A stretch of 57,261 nucleotides of DNA, taken from Pseudomonadota bacterium (GTDB lineage: Bacteria; Pseudomonadota; Gammaproteobacteria; Steroidobacterales; Steroidobacteraceae). Below are positions 42,493-54,039 of this stretch, one piece after another. The position numbers and the translations under genes are program-made. The notes beneath the pieces are model-generated. The model saw only the letters and a program-made list of their open reading frames with translations. It ran no database searches and was not told the DNA's origin. Each line of letters opens with the position of its first letter. Position 1 is the first letter of the stretch. The stretch lies in contig JAKARC010000014.1 in NCBI GenBank assembly GCA_021822385.1, positions 1 to 57,261 on the forward strand. Direction: 5' to 3'.

Positions 42493-43326
42493 TCACCATT
42501 TGACCAGCGGCGGCAGACTCATGAGATAGGCCTCGGGGTCCGCGTCGGTTTGAAAACCGAACCGGGTGCCGCGATCATAGACCAGGTTGAACTCCACGTA
42601 CCGCCCTCGCTTATACAGTAGGCGCTCGCGCGCCTGCGCATCGTACGGAATGTCTTTGCGGCGCGACACGAGCGTCGGGTAGATCCCGAGAAACGCCTCG
42701 CCCACTTGGCGGACGAAGGCAAAGTCCGCGCCGGTGTCACCGCTGGCGAGCTCATCGAAAAAGATGCCACCCACCCCGCGCGGCTCGCGCCGGTGCGGCA
42801 GGTAGAAATACCGGTCGCACCACGCCTTGTACTCCTCGTAGGCTCCGGGCCGATACGTCGCGCAGGCGCGGCGCAGTGCCGCATGGAACTGCTCCGTATC
42901 TTCATCGAAGGGAAAGGTCGGCGTGAGATCCGATCCGCCGCCGAACCATTCCCGACTGGTGCGCAGATAACGCAGGTTCATGTGCACGGTGGGCACGTAG
43001 GGGTTCGTCATATGCGCGACCAGCGAGATGCCGCTGGCGAGGAATCGTCCGCCCGACTCGGCCGCACCGGGGATCTGCGCACGCGCCTGTTCCGGGAACA
43101 CGCCCCAGACGTGGCTGAAGTTGACGCCGACCTTCTCGAAGACCTGCCCGCGCATGAGCTTCGAGGCGCCGCCGCCTTCGAGATGATGGCCGCTCGGGCG
43201 GCGCCAGTCGCGTGTCTCGAACCGAGCCTCGGGCTCAAATGCCTCGAATGCGCCGCAGATCCGTGCCTGCAGGTCGCGGAAATACGCTGCCGCTGCCGCC
43301 GCCCAATCCGTGCCTGCAGCGGTCAC
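42493..43326 (-). CDS. hemF: Oxygen-dependent coproporphyrinogen III oxidase
   Basis: The 277-aa enzyme makes protoporphyrinogen IX aerobically. Conserved HemF blocks are [49 protein letters not shown] and the C-terminal [19 protein letters not shown]. The GTG at 43326 overlaps the hemE stop by four bases (GTGA), giving a product of a typical length; earlier in-frame codons lie in hemE. It is the last haem gene of the block. Protoporphyrinogen oxidase and ferrochelatase are not in the window. Confidence 0.94.
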
Positions 43327-44369
43327 AGCCGATTGTCTCCGCGTGATGAGCGTTCGTGTACGATGTCCACGAGTCGCGCGACCGCATCCGGGTCGGTTTG
43401 CGGCCATATGCCGTGCCCCAGGTTGAAGATGTGCCCGGGTGCGCCGCCGGCTTCCTGCAATACGCGCCCGGCCTGGCGGGCGAGTTCGTCGGCCGGAGCG
43501 AACAGCGCCGCCGGATCCAGGTTGCCTTGCACGGCCTGCTGCGCTCCCAAGACGCGGCGGACGGCGCCGAGCGGCGCACGCCAGTCGACCCCGATCACAT
43601 CGGCCGGAAGGTTGGCGAGCCGATCGAGGAGCGCCGTGCCCTGATTGAGGTAGTAGATGAGCGGCACCCCGTGGTTGCGCAGGGCGGCCAGCGTGCGCAT
43701 CGCGCCGCGCAGCGCGAAGCGCTCGAACTCCGGTGGCGCGAGCAATCCGCCCCAGGATTCAAACAGCATCAACGCCTGGGCGCCGGCTTGCGCCTGCGCG
43801 CCGAGATAGGCGGCCATGGCATCGGCGAGCCGGTCCAACAGCCGTTCCGCCGAGCCCGGGCTTGCGTACAGAAACGCCCGCGCCGTTTCGAACTCCTTGG
43901 AGGGCCTGCCGCTCACCAGATAACACAGCAGTGTGAACGGGCCGCCGGCAAAGCCGATGAGCGGCACATGGCGCGGCGCCTCGGCGCGCACCCGGCGCAC
44001 GGTCTCGAGCACGAACGGCACGTCGCGGTGCGGTACCAGGGGCCGCAACGCATCGATGGCCGCATCGGTGCGGATGGGTTGGCCGATCACCGGGCCGGGC
44101 TCGAATGTCAGGTCGACGCCCATGCCCGCGAGCGGTGTCATGATGTCGCTGAAGAGGATGGCCGCATCGAGCGGGAAGCGCCGCAACGGCTGTAACGTCA
44201 CCTCGGCTGCCAGTTCCGGCGTTCGGGTGAGCGCTTCGAAGGATACGCGCGCGCGAATCTGACGGTACTCCGGCAGGTAGCGGCCGGCCTGACGCATGAT
44301 CCAGATCGGTGTGTAGGGCACCACCTGGCGCCGGCACGCGGCGAGAAATACCGCTGTAGGCTCGCTCAC
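43323..44369 (-). CDS. hemE: Uroporphyrinogen decarboxylase
   Basis: A 348-aa enzyme converting uroporphyrinogen III to coproporphyrinogen III. The signature PIWIMRQAGRYLPEYRQIR holds the active-site Arg. LIGFAGGPFTLLCYLV is the second signature, and the C-terminal NLGHGIWPQTDPDAV is typical. The start codon is GTG at 44369, directly abutting the hemB stop (TGAGTG), and its stop overlaps hemF. The order hemB-hemE-hemF follows the pathway order. Confidence 0.95.
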   Translation of the reverse strand: MSEPTAVFLAACRRQVVPYTPIWIMRQAGRYLPEYRQIRARVSFEALTRTPELAAEVTLQPLRRFPLDAAILFSDIMTPLAGMGVDLTFEPGPVIGQPIRTDAAIDALRPLVPHRDVPFVLETVRRVRAEAPRHVPLIGFAGGPFTLLCYLVSGRPSKEFETARAFLYASPGSAERLLDRLADAMAAYLGAQAQAGAQALMLFESWGGLLAPPEFERFALRGAMRTLAALRNHGVPLIYYLNQGTALLDRLANLPADVIGVDWRAPLGAVRRVLGAQQAVQGNLDPAALFAPADELARQAGRVLQEAGGAPGHIFNLGHGIWPQTDPDAVARLVDIVHERSSRGDNRL

Positions 44370-45350
44370 TCAGAGACTCCTCAGCCACCGCGCCACGGTG
44401 GGGGCGTAGTAGGTGATGATCAAATCTGCGCCGGCGCGGCGGATGCCGGTGAGGGACTCCAGCACCGCGGCCCGTTCGTCGATCCAACCGCGCTCGGCCG
44501 CGGCCTTGATCAGGCTGAACTCACCGCTCACCTGATAGGCCACAACCGGCACTGGCACCGCCTCGGACACCTGGCGAATGACATCGAGATATGGTCCGGC
44601 CGGCTTGACCATCACCAGATCGGCGCCTTCGGCCACATCGAGCAGGACTTCGCGCAGCGCCTCGCGGCCATTGCCCGGATCCATCTGATAACTGCGTCGG
44701 TCGCCAAAGGCCGGAGCAGATTCGGCCGCGTCGCGGAACGGCCCATAGAATGCCGAAGCGAACTTGGCGGCATAGGAGATGATAGGCGTCAGCGCAAACC
44801 CTGCACGGTCGAGCGTTTGGCGCATGCTCTGAACACGTCCATCCATCATGTCGCTCGGCGCGACGGCATCGGCTCCCGCGCGCGCGTAATTGAGCGCGAC
44901 CGCCGCCAATGTCTGCACCGAGGAATCGTTATCGATCACCCCACCCGGCAGCACGTGGCCGCAGTGGCCGTGGTCGGTTGCGCCGCACAGGCATACGTCC
45001 GCCCATACCAGGAGCTGCGGACAGGCTGCCTTCACCGCCCGGATCGCCTCGGCCGCGAGTCCGTGCGGATCGAGCGCCGCGCTCGCCTGGGCATCCTTGT
45101 GCGCAGGTGCCGCGAACAGCAACACGGCTGGTACTCCAGCCGCGAGCGCTGATTGCGCTTCGGCGACGGCCTCGTCCACCGAGAGCTGGCAGATGCCGGG
45201 CATGCTCGCGACGGGACGGCGGATTGCGCTGCCCGGGACGACGAACAATGGATAGACGAGCTGATCGGGGTGCAGGCGCGTCTCACGCACCATGCGCCGC
45301 CAAGGATCCGACTGGCGTGTGCGCCGAGGTCTAACTGAGGGAAAGTTCAT
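44370..45350 (-). CDS. hemB: Porphobilinogen synthase (delta-aminolevulinate dehydratase)
   Basis: The 326-aa enzyme condenses two 5-aminolevulinates. The zinc-binding cysteine cluster CLCGATDHGHCG is intact, so it is a Zn enzyme. The two catalytic lysines are in SYAAKFASAFYGPFR and VMVKPAGPYLD. The ATG at 45350 has AAAGG upstream and is chosen over a longer open frame; it lies inside the 3' end of hemD (20-bp overlap). hemE starts immediately after the stop. Confidence 0.95.
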   Translation of the reverse strand: MNFPSVRPRRTRQSDPWRRMVRETRLHPDQLVYPLFVVPGSAIRRPVASMPGICQLSVDEAVAEAQSALAAGVPAVLLFAAPAHKDAQASAALDPHGLAAEAIRAVKAACPQLLVWADVCLCGATDHGHCGHVLPGGVIDNDSSVQTLAAVALNYARAGADAVAPSDMMDGRVQSMRQTLDRAGFALTPIISYAAKFASAFYGPFRDAAESAPAFGDRRSYQMDPGNGREALREVLLDVAEGADLVMVKPAGPYLDVIRQVSEAVPVPVVAYQVSGEFSLIKAAAERGWIDERAAVLESLTGIRRAGADLIITYYAPTVARWLRSL

Positions 45351-46122
45351 CTGTGCAGCCTTTGGGTTGAGGGTCGTGCCACACGGCAAGGCAGGCGTGC
45401 GCGAGACCGCGCAAAGTCGCCGATGCGGCAACTGTCGATGGTATGCCGCGCGCTTCCAGAGCGCGGGCCGTTGTCGGCCCGATCGAGACCGCCGGGGCGG
45501 TTGCGAACAGGTGTTGGAAATATTCGGTGCCCAGGATATTTTCGAGCTCGGTCACCGCCGAGGGACTGGCAAAGGTGACCGCGCCCACCGCGTTGCGTCT
45601 GATCATGGTGCGGCAGCTGTCCGCGTCGAGAGTCGCCGGAACGGTACGATAAGCCACGAAGCGCACGACGTCGGCGCCGAGACGGGCGAGACCCTCCGGC
45701 AGCGTCGGCCGCGAGCGCGAGCTGGCCGGATAGAGTACACGCCGGCCCCGTAAGCCGACTTCCGCGAGCGCGTGCACCAGAGTCTCGGCGCCAGGTCCGG
45801 GGCCACACAGATCCACGCGCCAGCCGCGCTCGCGCAACAGGTCCGCAGTGCTCGAACCCACAGCAGCGATGCGCGTGCGCGCAGGCGGTCGCGGCAGCGT
45901 GTCGGTCACGGCTTCGACCGCGTGGGCGCTGGTGAACACGATCCAGTCGAATGTCGCGGTGGCACGGCGCAGCGCTTCCCATTCGGCCGCGTCGGTCCAC
46001 TCGATACCGATCACGGGCCAGTGGAGCGCGGTCAGGCCCAGACGCTCGAGCTCACCGCGCAGACCGCCGCCGCCGGACTCGGCGCGAGTCACGACCACGG
46101 GTTGGCCGGCGACGCTGCTCAC
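45331..46122 (-). CDS. hemD: Uroporphyrinogen-III synthase
   Basis: A 263-aa two-domain protein of the poorly conserved HemD family. The recognisable parts are PVVVTRAESGGGGLRGELER at the N-terminus, FTSAHAVEAV near residue 65, FASPSAVTELE in the second domain, and AVSIGPTTARALEARG near the C-terminus. It closes and inverts ring D of hydroxymethylbilane. The GTG at 46122 overlaps the hemC stop (GTGA). Position next to hemC supports the call. Confidence 0.92.
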   Translation of the reverse strand: MSSVAGQPVVVTRAESGGGGLRGELERLGLTALHWPVIGIEWTDAAEWEALRRATATFDWIVFTSAHAVEAVTDTLPRPPARTRIAAVGSSTADLLRERGWRVDLCGPGPGAETLVHALAEVGLRGRRVLYPASSRSRPTLPEGLARLGADVVRFVAYRTVPATLDADSCRTMIRRNAVGAVTFASPSAVTELENILGTEYFQHLFATAPAVSIGPTTARALEARGIPSTVAASATLRGLAHACLAVWHDPQPKGCTDELSLS

Positions 46123-47066
46123 GGCACGGATACCTGTTGCGCCGCGCGTTGTGCGGCGATCAGCTGCGCGGCGCCCTGTGCGAGGAGATTCTCCGCAAGG
46201 CGCTCACCCAGTTCGCGCGCGCCCGCGGCCGGCGCGCTACCTTCCGCGGACAGGCTGCGCGTGCCGTCGAGGCTGCAGACCACGGCCCGCAGATGGAGCA
46301 AGCCACCGGTCAGGTGCGCCAACGCGCCGAGTGGAACCTGACAGCCGCCCTCGATGCGTTGCAGCAGCGCCCGCTCGGCGGTGGCCGCGAGTCGTGTCGC
46401 GGCATGATCGAGCGGGTCGAGCCAGCGGGCGGTGACGCGGTCATTGCTGCGGGCGCAGACGCCGATCGCGCCCTGGGATACGGCCGGCGGAAATTGCACT
46501 GGCGAGAGTCGCTCGGTGATACGCGCCTCGAGCCCCAGGCGCTTCAGACCCGCCGCCGCAAGCACGATAGCGTCATAGTCGCCGCGCTCGAGCCGCGCTA
46601 GGCGCGTCGGCACGTTGCCGCGCAGCTCGTGCAGTTGGATATCGGGACGCAGACGTGCAATGAACGCTCGCCGGCGCACGCTGCTCGTACCAACGCGGGC
46701 ACCGGCCGGCAGGGTCGTCAGCGCACCACCGGCGCGACTGACGAGCGCATCGCAGGGGTCTTCGCGTGCGAGCACGGCAGTGAGCGCCAAGCCCGTTTCA
46801 AGCTCGGTGGGCAGATCCTTCAGACTGTGCACGGCCAGATCGATGCGCTCTTCGAGCAGCGCATGATCAAGTTCCCGGGTGAAAAATGCGCGGCCACCGA
46901 CGGTCCACAACGGTACCTGCGTCTGCACATCCCCCGCAGTCGTGATGGGCACGAGTTCGAGGACAGGCGCATCGGGCAGCGCGCCGATCAGTGCCTGAAC
47001 GTGCCGGGCCTGCCACAGCGCCAGTGCGGAGGCGCGCGTACCAATACGCAGGACAGTACGGGTCAC
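46119..47066 (-). CDS. hemC: Hydroxymethylbilane synthase (porphobilinogen deaminase)
   Basis: The 315-aa enzyme polymerises four porphobilinogens on a dipyrromethane cofactor linked to the Cys in EGGCQVPLGALA. The N-terminus RIGTRASALALWQA, DLAVHSLKDLP, and GTSSVRRRAFI are all typical. The GTG at 47066 overlaps the response-regulator stop (GTGA), fixing the start despite an open frame that runs on into the regulator gene. hemD follows in the same style. Confidence 0.94.
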   Translation of the reverse strand: MTRTVLRIGTRASALALWQARHVQALIGALPDAPVLELVPITTAGDVQTQVPLWTVGGRAFFTRELDHALLEERIDLAVHSLKDLPTELETGLALTAVLAREDPCDALVSRAGGALTTLPAGARVGTSSVRRRAFIARLRPDIQLHELRGNVPTRLARLERGDYDAIVLAAAGLKRLGLEARITERLSPVQFPPAVSQGAIGVCARSNDRVTARWLDPLDHAATRLAATAERALLQRIEGGCQVPLGALAHLTGGLLHLRAVVCSLDGTRSLSAEGSAPAAGARELGERLAENLLAQGAAQLIAAQRAAQQVSVP

Positions 47067-47788
47067 GATTCGGCCTCGATCAGGAAGCGGTAGCCCACAC
47101 CCCACACGGTGAGGAAGTGGCGCGGATTGGCGGGGTCGCGCTCGAACCGCCGCCGCAGTCGCAGGATGAAGTTGTCCACGGTGCGGGTGGAGGGGAAGAC
47201 ATCGTACCCCCAGACCCGTTCGAGCAAATCCTCGCGTGAGACGATCTGCCCGGGGCGTTCGGCCAGGACCTTCAAGATCATCGCCTCCTTCTCGGTCAGC
47301 TCCTGCGGCAGGCCGTTCCATGCGCGACCGCGGAAGGCGCGGAAGTCGACCTCGTTTTCTCCGAAGCGCAGCACGGCAGTTTCGGCCGCCGCACTCTGAT
47401 ACCACTCCCAGCGCCGCAGAATGGCCCGCACCCGCAGGAGCAACTCCTTCAGGTGAAAGGGTTTCGGCAGATAGTCGTCGCCCCCCGCCTCCAGTCCCCG
47501 GACCCGGTCCGCCGGATCGCCGCGCGCCGTCAGAAACAGGACGGGTGTGGTGTCGCCGCGCTCACGCAGGGTGCGGCACACGGTGAACCCGTCGACCTCC
47601 GGCAGCATGACATCGAGCAGCACCAACCGGTAGGTTTGCGCTGCAAGTTGCGCCAGTGCGGTGCGCCCGTCGCCGGCCTGATCGACGCTGTAGCCCTCGG
47701 CACGCAGGTTTTCGACCAGTCCGGCGGCGAGGTACGGGTCGTCCTCAACCACCAGGAGCGCGCGGGCAGTGTTGGCCGGTATGTTCAC
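47063..47788 (-). CDS. OmpR-family response regulator inside the haem operon
   Basis: A 241-aa regulator with an N-terminal receiver domain (LLVVEDDPYLAAGLVENL; phosphoacceptor Asp59 in LVLLDVMLPEVDG; Lys in YLPKPFHLKE). A C-terminal winged-helix DNA-binding domain of OmpR/PhoB type follows (LTEKEAMILKVLAERPG; STRTVDNFILRLRRRF; VWGVGYRFL). The GTG at 47788 overlaps the kinase stop (GTGA), and its own stop overlaps hemC in the same way. It is therefore translated with hemC and its partner kinase. The targets are unknown; autoregulation of the hem operon is an obvious hypothesis. Confidence 0.93.
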   Translation of the reverse strand: MNIPANTARALLVVEDDPYLAAGLVENLRAEGYSVDQAGDGRTALAQLAAQTYRLVLLDVMLPEVDGFTVCRTLRERGDTTPVLFLTARGDPADRVRGLEAGGDDYLPKPFHLKELLLRVRAILRRWEWYQSAAAETAVLRFGENEVDFRAFRGRAWNGLPQELTEKEAMILKVLAERPGQIVSREDLLERVWGYDVFPSTRTVDNFILRLRRRFERDPANPRHFLTVWGVGYRFLIEAES

Positions 47789-48903
47789 GAGGGATGGACG
47801 TCCAAGGCGGGCTGTTCGCCCCCGGGAGCCGCCGGCCACCGCAGCACGAAGCGGGCGCCATGGCCGATGCCGGCGCTCTCGGCGCTGACCCGTCCGCCCA
47901 TCAGGTGCATCAACCGCTGCACGATGTACAGACCGAGACCGGTCCCGTGATAGCTGCCGCCGCCGGGCTGCAAGCGCCGGAATTTCTCGAACAGTCGCGT
48001 CGCGTCGGTGGATTTGAAACCCACGCCGCTGTCACGCACCGCAAGCTCAATCGTGTCCGCAATGCGCCGGCCGCTGAAGACGATGCTGCCGCCGCCCATG
48101 GGCACGACCGCCGCCAGTGCGTTGTCGAGCAGGTTGCGCAGGATGACATCAAGCGCCATCGGGTCGGCGAGTACTTCGAGTCCGGGATCGACCTCGGTGC
48201 GGATGGCGATGTGTGCCTGGGCCGCGCGTTCCTCCACCGCGGCCGTCGTCCGGCGCACGGCGCCGGCCAAATCCACCGGTTCATGCTGCAGCTCGACCCG
48301 GCCACGGTCGAGTCGGGCGCTTTCCAGGATCCGGCTCACCATGCCTTCCATGCGCGCCACATCCATCAACATCCGGTCGGTCAGACTGCGAGTCTGTTCG
48401 TCCGAGAGCGTGCGCATCGTGAGGGTCTCGAGTGACAGCTGCAGGCTCGCGAGCGGAGTCTTGAACTGATGCGAGACCATCGCCAGGAAGTTGTCCTGCT
48501 CGATCATGGCCAGCGCCTCGGCGCGCAGGGCGCGGGCGATGACCACGATGCATGCGACCAGCGCCAGGAGGAAAAAACCGCCCTCCCACGCGAACTGGAC
48601 AATGCGCAGGTGTTCCTGGGCGAGCAGTGCGTGCTCGACCGCGGGCTTGATCCGGGCGCCGTCTGGGGTCAATTGCACCAAAGGCAACAGTGCCTGCACG
48701 CGCTTGACCGGCACGCCCGCCGCGAGCAGGGTGCGTGCGGCGGCGGCCTGTTGCGCGTAGGCACTCTGCAACTGCGTGACTTTTTCGACGGCATAGTGAT
48801 GCTCGTCGTACAGCCACCAACAGACTTGCACGGTACACACCGCCACCAGGGCCATGACGGTGATCTGCAGGATGCGCGGAACCCGGTTCGCCCGCGGTGT
48901 CAT
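47785..48903 (-). CDS. Membrane sensor histidine kinase inside the haem operon
   Basis: A 372-aa kinase. It has two membrane helices (about 11-32 and 103-125) enclosing a short periplasmic segment of about 70 residues rich in Gln/Ala. The HisKA phosphoacceptor is His145 in AMVSHQFKTPLASL, and the HATPase domain has LLDNALAAV (N box), DSGVGF (G1) and GTGLGLYIV (G2). The ATG at 48903 overlaps the hemL stop (ATGA). No PAS or HAMP domain is evident, so the signal is probably sensed by the short external loop or the membrane. Its position between hemL and the regulator gene is fixed by overlaps on both sides. Confidence 0.93.
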   Translation of the reverse strand: MTPRANRVPRILQITVMALVAVCTVQVCWWLYDEHHYAVEKVTQLQSAYAQQAAAARTLLAAGVPVKRVQALLPLVQLTPDGARIKPAVEHALLAQEHLRIVQFAWEGGFFLLALVACIVVIARALRAEALAMIEQDNFLAMVSHQFKTPLASLQLSLETLTMRTLSDEQTRSLTDRMLMDVARMEGMVSRILESARLDRGRVELQHEPVDLAGAVRRTTAAVEERAAQAHIAIRTEVDPGLEVLADPMALDVILRNLLDNALAAVVPMGGGSIVFSGRRIADTIELAVRDSGVGFKSTDATRLFEKFRRLQPGGGSYHGTGLGLYIVQRLMHLMGGRVSAESAGIGHGARFVLRWPAAPGGEQPALDVHPS

Positions 48904-50189
48904 GCGGCGCTCTCGAGAGCGCGCTCGAGAGCATGACCGAGCGTCTCGATGTCCGCCTCCCGGTGGGCGAGCGAGAGAAAGCAGGCTTCATACGCCGAGG
49001 GCGGAAAGTAGATGCCTTGCGCGAGCAGTGCATGAAACAGCCGGCCGTAGCGCTCGACTGCAGCGCTTGCAAGGGGCGCGGCGGCGCGCGGCGCCACCGG
49101 CTCGTGCAACGACAGCCAGAACAGCGAGCCCACCCGCACCAGGTGCACCGGGAATCGCGCGCGGGCCAACAGCGGCTGCACCACCGCCTCGACGTGTGCG
49201 CCGAGCGCCTCAAGGCGCGGCCATCCATCCTCGCGCGTGAGCACCTCGAGGGTGGCGAGGCCGCTCGCCATGGCGAGCGGGTTGCCGGAGAGCGTTCCGG
49301 CCTGATAGGCATCGCCATCGGGGGCAAGCCGCGCCATGATGGCGCGCGGGCCGGCGAAGGCCCCCACCGGCAGCCCGCCGCCGATCACCTTACCAAACGT
49401 GGCCATGTCCGGGGTGATGCCCAGGCGCTCGGCGGCACCGCCCGGCGCTAGGCGGAATCCCGAAATGACCTCGTCGAAAATTAACAGCGCTCCGTGTGCG
49501 CGCGTGAGCGCGCGCAGTCGGTCGAGGAACGTCTGGCGCTGCGGCAGCAGTCCGTGATTGGCGGGTACCGGCTCGATGATCGCCGCCGCGATGCGTTCGC
49601 CTTCCGCTGCGAAAAGACTTTCCAGCGCCGCCTCGTCGTCGAGCGGTAGCACCCGGGTACAGGCGGTGAAGGGCGCGGGAATGCCCGCCGAGGAAGGACG
49701 GCCGAAAGTGGCAAGACCGGAGCCGGCGGCCACCAGCAGATGATCGGCATGGCCGTGGTAGCAGCCGGAAAATTTCACGATCAGATCGCGGCCCGTCGCG
49801 GCCCGCGCAACGCGGATCGCGCTCATCACCGCTTCGGTCCCGGAGGAGACGAAGCGCACTTGCTCGATTCCGGGATAGGCGGACACCACACGCTCGGCGA
49901 GTGCCACCTCCCCGGCGCAGGGGGCGCCGAACGTGGTGCCGTCGCGGCATGCCGCCGTGATCGCTGCAACGACGGCCGGGTGCGCGTGGCCCAGGATCAG
50001 TGGGCCCCAGGAACCGACGAAGTCGAGGTAACGTTGGCCGTCGGCGTCGATGATATGCGCGCCCTCGGCGCGAGCGATGAACAGCGGCGTGCCGCCGACG
50101 GCGCGAAAGGCCCGCACGGGGGAGTTCACACCCCCGGGGATCACCGCGCGTGCACGCGCGTAGAGTTCATCGGAACGTGGATGTCGCAT
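48900..50189 (-). CDS. hemL: Glutamate-1-semialdehyde 2,1-aminomutase
   Basis: The 429-aa PLP enzyme makes 5-aminolevulinate from the product of HemA. Motifs are GVNSPVRAFRAVGGTP, VSSGTEAVMSAIRVARA, KFSGCYHGHADHLLVAAGSG, and the PLP region LLIFDEVISGFR. The PLP lysine is in FGKVIGGGLPVGAFAG. The length is normal. It starts three bases after hemA and overlaps the kinase gene. Confidence 0.95.
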   Translation of the reverse strand: MRHPRSDELYARARAVIPGGVNSPVRAFRAVGGTPLFIARAEGAHIIDADGQRYLDFVGSWGPLILGHAHPAVVAAITAACRDGTTFGAPCAGEVALAERVVSAYPGIEQVRFVSSGTEAVMSAIRVARAATGRDLIVKFSGCYHGHADHLLVAAGSGLATFGRPSSAGIPAPFTACTRVLPLDDEAALESLFAAEGERIAAAIIEPVPANHGLLPQRQTFLDRLRALTRAHGALLIFDEVISGFRLAPGGAAERLGITPDMATFGKVIGGGLPVGAFAGPRAIMARLAPDGDAYQAGTLSGNPLAMASGLATLEVLTREDGWPRLEALGAHVEAVVQPLLARARFPVHLVRVGSLFWLSLHEPVAPRAAAPLASAAVERYGRLFHALLAQGIYFPPSAYEACFLSLAHREADIETLGHALERALESAA

Positions 50190-50192
50190 GCG

Positions 50193-51512
50193 TTACCGGT
50201 CCGCCTGTTCGGAGGGCAGAGTGGTGCCTGGAGGGCCACGGCGCTGCAGCTGCGCCGCGCGGAAAAATGTATCAAGCACATCCGCAGTGGTCTGCGCCGC
50301 CGCGGCGCGCAGCCCACGGATGGGCAGATGCACCAGACTATGCGCAACTCGCTCGGTCAGACGGCGCACGGCCGCCTGCTGCACGGCATCGAGCGTGCGC
50401 AGTTGCGAGGCCAGGGCCCGTTCGAGTTCCTCGGCGGCAATGTGCTCGAAGGTCTCGCGCAGCTCGGCCAGGTGCGGCCCGATCGCCCGGCTTGCCATCT
50501 CGGTGCGCAGCCGGGCGAGCCGATCGTCGATTGCGGCACGCACCGGCGCGAGCCGCAGCAGCTCATCGAGTCGCCGGTCTTCGACAGCGCGCACGAGATC
50601 GTTCATGCCGATGTATTCGATGCGCGCGCGCTGCGCAGCCGCCGGCTCGAGGTTGGGAGGGACACCGAAATCCACCGCGAGAGGCCGGCGCTTACCCGGC
50701 CGTCCGGCGATGCGCTCGAGCGTTGCCGCGCCGAGCAGCGGTGCTCCGCCACCGGCAGCCAGCACCATCGCCGCCGCGTGTTCGGGAGTCTCGCGAAACG
50801 TTTCGAGGGTTACGACTCTGGCGGAGACTTCCGCTGCGAAGGACTCGGCGGCGGCAAGCGAACGGTTGACGATCAGGAGCGGCACTCCGGCGCGGGCAAG
50901 CGCAAGCCCGCACCGGCGAGTCATGGGCGAGACGCCAATCAGCACGACCTGATCAGATGGGTCGTGCTTTCCGCCGAGATGCGCGAGCACACGGTCGACC
51001 GCGAGGTCCGCGAGCGACCGATGGGGGAGCCCGGAGCGCAGACGCTGCACTCGACTGGCCATGCCGAGCGCCTCGCCGAGCAGACGGTCGAGCTTCGGAC
51101 CACAGGTCCCGGCCTCCCGGGCGCTTTCCCAGGCCAAGCGCAGCTGCGCGGCAATTTCCCGCTCGCCGGCTTGCGCGGAATCGAGTCCGCAGGCAACCAG
51201 CAAGACATGTTCGACCGCCGATTCGCCCGCCCACGCGCGCAGCAGGCGCGGCGCCTGTTCGGGCTGCGGTGCGCGTCCGGTGAGTTCGGCCAGCACAGCG
51301 GTGCGCAGATCCGCGGCCGGCCGACCGCTGCCGGAGACGTAGAGCAATTCGACACGATTGCAGGTGCCCAGATAAACCAGTTCCGCCACGGCGAGCGCCT
51401 CGCGCAGCGCCGGCAGCCGTTGCGCGAGACTGGCACGGTCGAGGGAAAGACGTGCGACCTCGTCCACGCCCGCATGACGGTACGAGGCGCCTACGACACC
51501 GAACTGTTCCAT
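50193..51512 (-). CDS. hemA: Glutamyl-tRNA reductase
   Basis: The 439-aa NADPH-dependent enzyme commits glutamyl-tRNA to haem synthesis. The catalytic Cys is in YLGTCNRVELLY, with GASYRHAGVDEVARL at the N-terminus. The NADPH domain carries VVLIGVSPMTRRCGLALARAG in place of the more usual GAGEM-type motif, and the C-terminal dimerisation helix region ends SLVHLPIRGLR. ATG at 51512 follows GGGGG. The upstream open frame is not conserved. It is the first hem gene of the train, 74 bases after the NarL-type regulator. Confidence 0.93.
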   Translation of the reverse strand: MEQFGVVGASYRHAGVDEVARLSLDRASLAQRLPALREALAVAELVYLGTCNRVELLYVSGSGRPAADLRTAVLAELTGRAPQPEQAPRLLRAWAGESAVEHVLLVACGLDSAQAGEREIAAQLRLAWESAREAGTCGPKLDRLLGEALGMASRVQRLRSGLPHRSLADLAVDRVLAHLGGKHDPSDQVVLIGVSPMTRRCGLALARAGVPLLIVNRSLAAAESFAAEVSARVVTLETFRETPEHAAAMVLAAGGGAPLLGAATLERIAGRPGKRRPLAVDFGVPPNLEPAAAQRARIEYIGMNDLVRAVEDRRLDELLRLAPVRAAIDDRLARLRTEMASRAIGPHLAELRETFEHIAAEELERALASQLRTLDAVQQAAVRRLTERVAHSLVHLPIRGLRAAAAQTTADVLDTFFRAAQLQRRGPPGTTLPSEQADR

Positions 51513-51586
51513 GCCCCCAAGCACATCATGATCGACTGTCCGAGGTGTCACAGAACGGTCACCGGGTTTGGCGTCGCGGGTCTGCC

Positions 51587-52222
51587 TTAGAGGCGAATGA
51601 GACCGCGCTTGTGCGCTACGGCCACTGCCTCGGTCCGACTGATGGCATCGAGCTTGGTGAGAATGGATTTCACGTGAGTCTTGGCCGTGCCTTCGGTGAT
51701 TGACAGGCGTCGGGCGATGTCCTTGTTGCTTCGGCCCTGGGCGACGAGCTCGAGGACGTCGAGCTCGCGCTCGGTCAGGCTTGGCTTTGCCATCCGCTGC
51801 AGGGCCTTGGCTGCGACCGTAGAGGACGTATACGGCCGATCTTCGCTGACGGCGCGGATCGCCGAGAGGATTTCCTGGCGGGGCACATCCTTGAGGATGT
51901 AGCCTTTGGCGCCGTGCGAGAGGCACTGGAAGATGTCCTCGTCTCCATCATAGGTCGTCATGATCAGCAGACGCGCTTTAGGGTTGATTTCCATCACCCG
52001 CTGGACCACGGCCAACCCATCGCGTTTGGGCATGCGCAAATCGAGCACCATGACGTCGGGTTGCCGCTCCTCGTAGAGGGCAATGGCGGCATCGCCATCG
52101 CCGGCCTCGGCCACCACTTCCATGTCAGGCTGCTGATTGACCATGGCGGCGAGTCCATCGCGCACGACGGGATGATCGTCCGCGAGAATGACGCGTATCT
52201 TCTTGTGTATCTCGGCCGACAT
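51587..52222 (-). CDS. NarL-family response regulator
   Basis: A 211-aa regulator. The receiver domain has VILADDHPVVRDGLAAMV with phosphoacceptor Asp61 in VMVLDLRMPKRDG, and KGYILKD follows. The C-terminal LuxR-type helix-turn-helix is LTERELDVLELVAQGRSN, then KDIARRLSITEGTAKTH. The ATG shares one base with the stop of the kinase gene (TGATG). hemA begins 74 bases downstream on the same strand, and no terminator hairpin is evident between them. Confidence 0.92.
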   Translation of the reverse strand: MSAEIHKKIRVILADDHPVVRDGLAAMVNQQPDMEVVAEAGDGDAAIALYEERQPDVMVLDLRMPKRDGLAVVQRVMEINPKARLLIMTTYDGDEDIFQCLSHGAKGYILKDVPRQEILSAIRAVSEDRPYTSSTVAAKALQRMAKPSLTERELDVLELVAQGRSNKDIARRLSITEGTAKTHVKSILTKLDAISRTEAVAVAHKRGLIRL

Positions 52223-54039
52223 CAGGTCCTCCGCTTGTGCATGCGTACGCTGACGCGGGTGCCGGCTCCGGGCCGGCTCTCGATGCGCCATTCGCCACCG
52301 ATGTCGGTGGCGCGTTGACGCATGCTGGTCAAGCCGAAGCCCTGGCGCTCGTGACGTTCCGGACTCTGGCCCATGCCCTGACCGTCATCCTCGATGGCCA
52401 TCACCCAATGGGCGTCCTCGTTCGTGATCGTGATCCGGACTGTCGTGGGGCGTCCGTGGCGTACCGCATTGCTGACCGCCTCCTGGGCAATCCGCAGCAG
52501 CTCATGCTCCTGCTCGGGCGGCAAACCCGTGTCGATCGTGTCGCCGCTGAAGGTGCAGGTGACACCACCCGGCACAGTGGAACGTTCGGCAAGCTGGCGC
52601 AGCGCGAGCTCGAGTCCCGTGCGGCGCGTCTGATCGAGTCTGAGCGCCATGACCGAGCGACGGGCCTCGGCAAGTCCGTCCCGGGCCAGATCGCGGATGC
52701 GCGACAGGGTGATGGCGAGGTCCGAACCCTTCTCCCGGCAGGGCGGGGATTCCTCCAGTGCCCCGAGCTGCATCAGGATGCCGGTGAACGCCTGCGCGAG
52801 ACCGTCATGTATCTCCTGGCCGATGCGTGCGCGCTCGACGAGAACGGCGGCTTCCTTGGCTTGGTAGGCGAGCCGCGTCAACTGCACCGCCAGAGTAGCT
52901 TGCTGCGCCAGGGCGACCAGCAGCTCGCTGTGCGGTACGTCTTCGGCCTTGTGACGAAAGCGCAGGAGCAGAAAGCCGACGTTGCGCGAGCCGAACACCA
53001 GCGGGTAGACCACTTTGCCGATGTGACCCTCGCGCCGGTCGAACGCGAGCATGCCGGGCCAGAATTCCTGGTGCTGCTGCGCCACGTCGAGATACATCGG
53101 CTCATGGGGCTGGCCGAAGCGGTAGCCGAACGGCGAGTCAACCGGCACGCTGATCGGGTAGGGCGGCTCTTCGAGCTTGCCGGCATTCACGTGCGCGGCG
53201 ATACGCCACTCCTGCAGGCTATCGCGCGATACCACCACCGCTCCCGATACGGCGTCAAACTGGCGGGTCGCCTCGAGCAGCAGATGGCCGAGGAAGCTGT
53301 TCAGGTCGGGTTCGCTCGCCAGCCGCTCGAGGTTGCCCCGAATCACCGCATTGGCCTTGGCGAGCTCGGCAACGCGTTCCTCGGCCGCCCGCTCGCGCGT
53401 GCGGCGCATGTCATCGAGCAGCCGCTGGCGGTGCAGCGCCGCGCCAATCACGCTGGCTGCCGTCTCGAGCGCCGCCAGCTCGGCAGAGTCGATGGCCCGC
53501 CGCTTGCGCGTATTGTCGAGGCTGATAGCGCCGATGAATTCTCCGGCAATGATGATCGGCACAACGGCCTTGCTCTGCGTTCCGATGCCCTCGAAGCTGG
53601 TCGAGCCGGACATCGGCCGCCCCGTCTCCCCGGGATTGATGCACAGCGTGTGGCCGAGACGCAGCTCTGCGCAGATCGCCGGTAAATCGCGCTCATCACA
53701 GGAGCGTGCCGCCACGTCGTCCAGATGCGAGGGCACGCCCTCGGCGGTCCATTCCGCGACCACGATCAGCAGCGGCTCGTCATTCGGGCCGCGGCGGGTC
53801 CGCATCACGTTGACCCGGTCAACCTGCGCGGCTTGACCAATCAACCGTAGAACTTCCGGTATTGCCCCCCGCACGTCCGGAGTCTCAAGCAGCATGCGGC
53901 TGGCTTTGGCGGAGGCGGCCAGCAGCCCCTCCTGGCGCTGCAGCGATTCGTTGACGTGGGTCAGTTCATCGCTGCAGGGAACGATGTCTCCGGCCGAAGC
54001 CACCCGGCTTTGGAGGCCAGTGTTGGCCGCTGTGCTCAT
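52222..54039 (-). CDS. GAF-domain sensor histidine kinase (NarX/DegS-type, HisKA_3)
   Basis: The 605-aa kinase has no membrane segment. It has two GAF-like sensor domains, about residues 40-190 (TRRGPNDEPLLIVVAEWT; AVVPIIIAGEFIGAISLDN) and about 235-385 (GAVVVSRDSLQEWRI; VVYPLVFGSRNVGFLLLRF), joined by a coiled coil. The HisKA_3 phosphoacceptor is near residue 406 in ARIGQEIHDGLAQAFTGI, and the ATPase domain follows (RIAQEAVSNAVRHG; EDDGQGMG; GFGLTSMRQRA). The start at 54039 is the first plausible ATG with GAGAGAC upstream. A soluble signal is expected, but the ligand is unknown. Confidence 0.9.
   Translation of the reverse strand: MSTAANTGLQSRVASAGDIVPCSDELTHVNESLQRQEGLLAASAKASRMLLETPDVRGAIPEVLRLIGQAAQVDRVNVMRTRRGPNDEPLLIVVAEWTAEGVPSHLDDVAARSCDERDLPAICAELRLGHTLCINPGETGRPMSGSTSFEGIGTQSKAVVPIIIAGEFIGAISLDNTRKRRAIDSAELAALETAASVIGAALHRQRLLDDMRRTRERAAEERVAELAKANAVIRGNLERLASEPDLNSFLGHLLLEATRQFDAVSGAVVVSRDSLQEWRIAAHVNAGKLEEPPYPISVPVDSPFGYRFGQPHEPMYLDVAQQHQEFWPGMLAFDRREGHIGKVVYPLVFGSRNVGFLLLRFRHKAEDVPHSELLVALAQQATLAVQLTRLAYQAKEAAVLVERARIGQEIHDGLAQAFTGILMQLGALEESPPCREKGSDLAITLSRIRDLARDGLAEARRSVMALRLDQTRRTGLELALRQLAERSTVPGGVTCTFSGDTIDTGLPPEQEHELLRIAQEAVSNAVRHGRPTTVRITITNEDAHWVMAIEDDGQGMGQSPERHERQGFGLTSMRQRATDIGGEWRIESRPGAGTRVSVRMHKRRT

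Follow-up and report, generated by a model that had tools for sequence, protein, structure and literature searches.

The stretch of DNA analyzed here, hereafter the window, comprises 57,261 nucleotides of contig JAKARC010000014.1 (assembly GCA_021822385.1) from a gammaproteobacterium of the family Steroidobacteraceae. It carries a haem biosynthesis (hem) operon in which a two-component system is embedded, and this system is the subject of the present analysis. The operon is located on the minus strand with the gene order hemA-hemL-HK-RR-hemC-hemD-hemB-hemE-hemF, where HK is a HemK-like sensor histidine kinase of 372 amino acid residues (47785–48903) and RR a HemR-like response regulator of the OmpR/PhoB type with 241 residues (47063–47788). 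The first hem gene, hemA (glutamyl-tRNA reductase, 50193–51512), matches GlutR_N, for which the genome (85% complete) gave no other hit, and is followed by hemL (48900–50189). Downstream of the pair lie hemC (46119–47066), hemD (45331–46122), hemB (44370–45350, with the ATG at 45350 taken as the start), hemE (43323–44369), and hemF (42493–43407, start uncertain). The hem genes from hemA to hemE were assigned by Pfam, hemL and hemC also by NCBIfam, and hemF by NCBIfam. The kinase matched the Pfam families HisKA and HATPase_c but no others, and the regulator matched Response_reg and Trans_reg_C; both were further assigned by trees, and the kinase also by its match to a HemK query. The hemL/HK junction is ATGA (48903–48900), whereas the HK/RR (47788–47785) and RR/hemC (47066–47063) junctions are GTGA. 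This confirmed, at all three junctions, the four-base overlaps between hemL and hemC that had been noted in a preliminary description of this DNA. The hemC/hemD junction is also GTGA (46122–46119).

The kinase contains two transmembrane helices (TM1 and TM2), the phospho-accepting H145, and the predicted phosphatase residue T149 (HxxxT motif). No sensor, PAS, or HAMP family of Pfam matched it at E 0.001, in agreement with the earlier statement that it has no known sensor domain. In the AlphaFold model of the kinase (predicted local distance difference test score 79, predicted template modelling score 0.51), one long helix runs through TM1, and the TM2 helix continues straight into the phosphotransfer helix with no HAMP-like break. 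When this model was used for a fold search of the PDB, no informative sensor match was found among the top 50 rows, which were kinases or other signalling proteins matching mainly via the catalytic core. In the regulator, the phospho-acceptor D59 was assigned by position, and the recognition-helix stretch FPSTRTVDNFILRLR is encoded at 47153–47197 on the minus strand, within 47063–47788.

The pair and its gene neighborhood recur in related genomes. Of 296 genomes of the order, 47 matched the kinase query at 1e-40: the genome itself, 22 of the same genus, three from other genera of its family (f1), and 21 from another family of the same order (f6). No genome of the same genus was among the 20 misses listed; a further 229 genomes also did not match. 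The close relatives L009–L013 are metagenome-assembled and are called Proteobacteria or Gammaproteobacteria. The order hemL-HK-RR-hemC, which might have been unique to this genome, was present in 25 of 25 f1 loci (L019–L043). The f6 genomes have the order hemA-hemC-hemD-hemB-hemL-HK-RR-hemE where the contig allows, with hemD undetected in some. There, hemL adjoins the kinase in 20 of 21 genomes (the remaining contig begins with the kinase gene), and the regulator is followed by hemE in 19 of 21 (the other two contigs end first). Among 29 f1 rows, representing 27 distinct loci, the four-base overlap was kept in 29 at HK/RR, in 28 at RR/hemC, and in 22 at hemL/HK. The HK/RR overlap was also kept in 17 of 22 further rows, namely the 21 from f6 and L086, a related pair discussed below. 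This conservation is more than chance would give. The earlier view that the pair is fixed within this operon is supported, and the arrangement is kept in relatives. Wider searches at strict thresholds matched the own genome alone: profile A1 was run against 369 class genomes (1e-50) and sensor profile A2 against 398 phylum genomes (1e-15), two samples that partly overlap.

Across f1, the total length of the kinase varies from 358 to 407 residues, as seen in L030, L009–L012, and the window, because the C-terminal tail varies, and the overlap with the regulator gene is kept. In one relative (L037:198-2576), the hemL frame extends beyond its usual end, suggesting a frameshift or an assembly error.

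The preliminary description could not match the pair to a described system. Such a system is HemKR of Leptospira, which matches in gene order, trees, sensor-helix motif, and the DNA site at hemA. In both, a HisKA kinase with two transmembrane helices and no typical sensor domain is paired with a regulator of the OmpR/PhoB type. The L. interrogans locus has the order hemB-hemL-HK-RR-hemE-hemN, so that the pair directly follows hemL as it does here, and the order around the pair is that of f6; the position of the HemKR genes between hemE and hemL has been reported (PMC2266917). Downstream of the pair, Leptospira and f6 have hemE, whereas f1 has hemC. The regulator is 38% identical to HemR over 225 positions and the kinase 32% identical to HemK over 278 positions, which are modest values. 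In a one-way search with L. interrogans HemK, this kinase was the best match in the genome (5.8e-19), with the next at 3.0e-9. Each of the two trees comprised 34 rows, namely 20 of the 50 hem-linked ones, L086, and 13 proteins of Escherichia coli and the own genome. HemR grouped with the hem-linked regulators with support of 98/90 and HemK with the hem-linked kinases with 99/96. For the kinase tree, the core of E. coli PhoQ was delimited by position, as its motif was missed. A separate pair (L051/L001) grouped with E. coli PhoB and PhoR. The NCBIfam cut-offs for PhoB and PhoR were not reached by the embedded proteins (170.9 bits vs 296.2 for the regulator and 119.8 vs 334.2 for the kinase), and no model reached its cut-off among the 25 listed of 73 for the kinase and the 25 listed of 98 for the regulator.

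Mutants of L. biflexa HemKR (Hklep/Rrlep) are reported to require hemin or 5-aminolevulinic acid (ALA) (PMC2266917). Phosphorylated HemR binds the hem-box TGACA-N6-TGACA and was proposed to activate hem genes and to repress hmuO, and ALA switches on the phosphatase activity of HemK (PMC11426443). A linkage in Bdellovibrio was mentioned in 2008 with data not shown (PMC2266917).

The kinship with HemK extends to the sensor part. In a 29-row sensor alignment that includes Leptospira HemK, four residues of this part are invariant: W30, belonging to the W29-W30 motif of TM1 (48814–48819, minus strand), and E107, F110, and F111, belonging to the E107-G-G-F110-F111 motif of TM2 (48571–48585, minus strand). 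The WW and EGxFF residues, as well as the HxxxT phosphatase residue, are shared with Leptospira HemK. The larger set of 58 sensor rows represents 51 distinct loci because some contigs, recognised by their equal lengths, are present twice (L020=L009, L021=L011, and L044–L048=L092–L096). In 57 of these rows (50 of the 51 distinct loci), HemK included, the spacing between the Glu and the phospho-His is 38; only L086 departs from it. The E[GS]xFF pattern is absent from all 18 background kinases. The length of the periplasmic loop was approximated by the W-to-E spacing, which is 75–79 in 53 of 58 rows, a longer loop than in Leptospira HemK, and 36, 41, 46, and 54 in one row each. The loop is therefore variable, whereas the helix motifs are fixed. 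Constancy of motif spacing across distant kinases, set against a loop of changing length, singles out specific candidate residues for sensing. The loop of L. biflexa HemK can be replaced without loss, whereas HemK lacking the transmembrane segments and loop fails to complement (PMC2266917). The record of L. interrogans HemK annotates it as "HAMP domain-containing".

A HemR-type regulator would be expected to have a hem-box before hemA, and such a site was found. The sequence TGACCGTTCTGTGACA (51546–51561, minus strand), absent from the preliminary description, has one mismatch to TGACA-N6-TGACA and is the proposed binding site of the regulator. It lies in the hemA promoter region, between a NarL-type regulator gene and hemA, and ends 33 bases before the hemA ATG; no second site of one mismatch or fewer was found in the window. 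In relatives with the pair, the 200 bases upstream of hemA were scanned on the hemA strand at 41 loci, which contain no duplicate pairs and to which the window adds one further locus. The hem-box was exact in 14 of the 41, present with at most one mismatch in 39, and with at most two in all 41, compared with shuffle expectations of 0.01 (exact) and 0.15 (one mismatch) of 41. The f1 sites carry one or two mismatches, a difference from Leptospira. As controls, we searched hemA in 23 genomes of order relatives without a kinase match; 14 matched and were scanned, and nine gave no match at 1e-20. No hem-box with at most one mismatch was found in these 14 loci over 300 bases on both strands. In L. 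interrogans, an exact hem-box lies upstream of the hem operon, 37 bases before the gene at the hemA position. This gene is annotated as hypothetical, and its product is weakly similar to two HemA proteins of f6.

More specific patterns were derived from these sites. Across 21 whole genomes, the f6-derived pattern gave 13 sites, of which 12 immediately precede hemA; the single site without a recognisable hemA downstream is L196:1501-1516. The refined pattern for the genus was present in 25 of 31 genomes, including 11 of 11 that are at least 90% complete. Of its 38 sites in the genus, 30 were examined as loci: 16 lie at hemA, six at pstS-like genes, and eight at neither. The matches at hemA are partly circular because the patterns were derived from hemA sites, but the scarcity of sites elsewhere is not.

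From these comparisons, the pair is probably a gammaproteobacterial HemKR-type two-component system embedded in an operon that it controls. Several observations weigh against this interpretation. In the sensor, TM1 carries WW in 45 of 58 rows and YW or FW in 12, and the phosphatase position holds Ser instead of Thr in 25 of 58 rows, mainly from f6. HemR and HemK stand on long branches in the trees, and the hem-linked rows stand alone on one side of a branch in 12% of the bootstrap trees only. The non-hem pair L086 falls inside the hem-linked group. This pair, from f1 genome G158, is located away from recognised hem genes and lacks the sensor motif despite its position in the trees. At the DNA level, the refined pattern was missing in six of 31 genus genomes, all of them less than 90% complete, and sites with two mismatches were found in four of the 14 control hemA loci on either strand (two on the hemA strand). 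The generic genome scan at one mismatch returned 53 sites vs 39 for a reversed-pattern control, and the two-mismatch scan of the window returned 14, below the 27.8 expected by chance. Raw motif counts were rejected as evidence for this reason, and the site is convincing only in its position and conservation. Finally, the hem-box is a reversed Pho box, which makes PhoB the main rival.

According to this rival explanation, the hemA site would be a Pho box for PhoB, linking haem synthesis to phosphate, and the embedded pair would regulate something else. The Pho boxes of E. coli at phoA and pstS are TGTCA-N6-TGTCA, the reverse complement of the hem-box (PMC10294691), and the refined pattern also occurs beside pstS-like genes (encoding a PBP-type solute-binding protein) in the genus, in six of the 30 loci examined. 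This genome is among them: its other refined-pattern site (L121:1501-1516, corresponding to G000:C25:48363-48378) is Pho-box-like and lies towards a pstS-like gene, as do the sites of five further relatives. However, the two classes of sites are oppositely oriented, all 16 hemA loci having the gene downstream on the TGACA strand and all six pstS-like loci having it on the opposite strand. Moreover, the same site is the reported target of HemR in Leptospira (PMC11426443), and it is absent (at most one mismatch) from the 14 control loci without a kinase match, a comparison that is blind to their PhoB content. The orientation of the site and its absence in relatives without the pair favor the embedded regulator over PhoB, whose control of hemA we regard as unlikely.

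The conserved TGACA next to hemA could alternatively be merely the -35 element of a constitutive promoter. The -35 hexamer is TTGACA, part of which TGACA resembles, and the box lies at a short distance from the hemA start codon, as given above. However, the site is conserved in both of its half-sites, which lie 11 bp apart. A TAnnnT was present within 32 bases of the box in 19 of the 41 loci, and in these one such element lies 18–21 bases beyond it (counted without a chance control); this spacing is long for an ordinary promoter and suits an activator bound over the -35 region. In the other 22 loci, close relatives of the window among them, no TAnnnT was found within 32 bases. A promoter element alone is a very improbable explanation.

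A further two-component pair lies directly upstream of hemA (54039–51587, minus strand) and was also absent from the preliminary description. It consists of a kinase with a GAF domain and HisKA_3 (52222–54039) and the NarL-type regulator mentioned above (51587–52222), both assigned by Pfam. Of the 26 f1 loci with hemA, 13 carry the regulator of this pair upstream of that gene; one of the 13 without it, L070, is cut by the contig end, and the gap in L078 is ~600 bases. Where found, this regulator is 93–97% identical, which exceeds the identity of the embedded pair in the same loci. We set the second pair aside as a partner because it is present in only half of these loci and because the hem-box sits between it and hemA.

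It is also conceivable that operon structure retains the embedded pair as a passenger, with an envelope or other signal as its input and genes elsewhere as its targets. The algZR genes of Pseudomonas provide a precedent, as they are cotranscribed with hemCD, yet control virulence phenotypes (PMC5790918), and the related pair L086 neighbors a fatty-acid desaturase gene rather than hem genes. On the other hand, the association with hemL outlasts the change of the downstream neighbor, from hemC in f1 to hemE in f6 and Leptospira. In addition, few refined-pattern sites lie outside hemA and pstS-like genes (eight of 30 in the genus and one of 13 in f6, with patterns that are hemA-derived). We consider a passenger role rather improbable. 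The L086 pair itself (L086:5144-7927), which adjoins the desaturase gene and a TonB-dependent-receptor-like gene (the latter recognised by eye), may be a membrane-sensing sister system. A hem-box-like site with one mismatch is located near the end of its regulator gene, on the desaturase side.

The favored interpretation, that of a HemKR-type system controlling its own operon, would work as follows. The phosphorylated regulator would bind the hem-box shortly before hemA, at its two TGACA half-sites spaced 11 bp from each other, and would drive the hemA-L-HK-RR-C-D-B-E-F operon, presumably as a single transcript. As the pair is part of this operon, it would thereby also set its own level. Its two membrane helices would most likely let the kinase sense whether tetrapyrrole or ALA is sufficient, with the aromatic-W position of TM1 and the E-G-x-F-F position of TM2, near the outer membrane surface, as the sensing site. 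When the product is plentiful, the kinase would turn into a phosphatase via HxxxT, and hemA expression would be lowered. Sensing at the helix pair is proposed by analogy with HssS of Staphylococcus, which is reported to sense haem at the interface of the membrane and the outer surface via conserved Phe and Arg residues (PMC11237747). The preliminary description had suggested a feedback or redox sensor of tetrapyrrole demand. Of these, feedback in the supply of tetrapyrroles is the best interpretation. Evidence for redox sensing was not found; the kinase matched no PAS or other sensor family, and there is no cysteine among the invariant columns.

Other two-component systems linked to haem differ from this one in several respects. 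AlgR is a LytTR-type regulator, whereas the output domain of the present regulator is Trans_reg_C, and we know of no link between AlgZR and hemL. The regulators of HrrSA and ChrSA of Corynebacterium are of the NarL type; these systems are reported to exert haem-responsive control of haem homeostasis and are alike in this sense. AlgZR of Pseudomonas aeruginosa resembles the present pair in being reported as cotranscribed with hemC and hemD (PMC5790918). HssRS also has a HisKA kinase and serves as the mechanistic model for the sensor proposed here, but it governs haem efflux (hrtBA) and not haem synthesis and has a larger extracellular domain.

The pair may share its history with hemA. The HemA proteins of relatives without the kinase are 25–32% identical to this HemA, compared with 35–39% for f6 in 13 loci and 23–25% in the two most divergent f6 loci. 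This pattern suggests that hemA and the pair may have moved together. More speculatively, and less likely than not, the aromatic-W/E-G-x-F-F site may be a haem- or porphyrin-sensing intramembrane site common to spirochaetes and gammaproteobacteria, which needs no periplasmic domain. It would move together with hemL and the hemA box as a self-regulating unit for haem synthesis, one that took the place of the native hemA in these lineages.

The HemKR kind of system is known from Leptospira; what is new here is its probable gammaproteobacterial occurrence with a rearranged operon. No published report of a gammaproteobacterial HemKR was found in the open-licence literature, the scope of a search outside which most subscription journals lie. 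The HemKR experiments in the literature found concern Leptospira only, where the signal of HemK and its sensing site are still open (PMC11426443). The present system is a further, Gram-negative example of a two-component system that appears to control the initial step of haem synthesis, and it brings 42 predicted binding sites for its regulator, one in the window and 41 in relatives.

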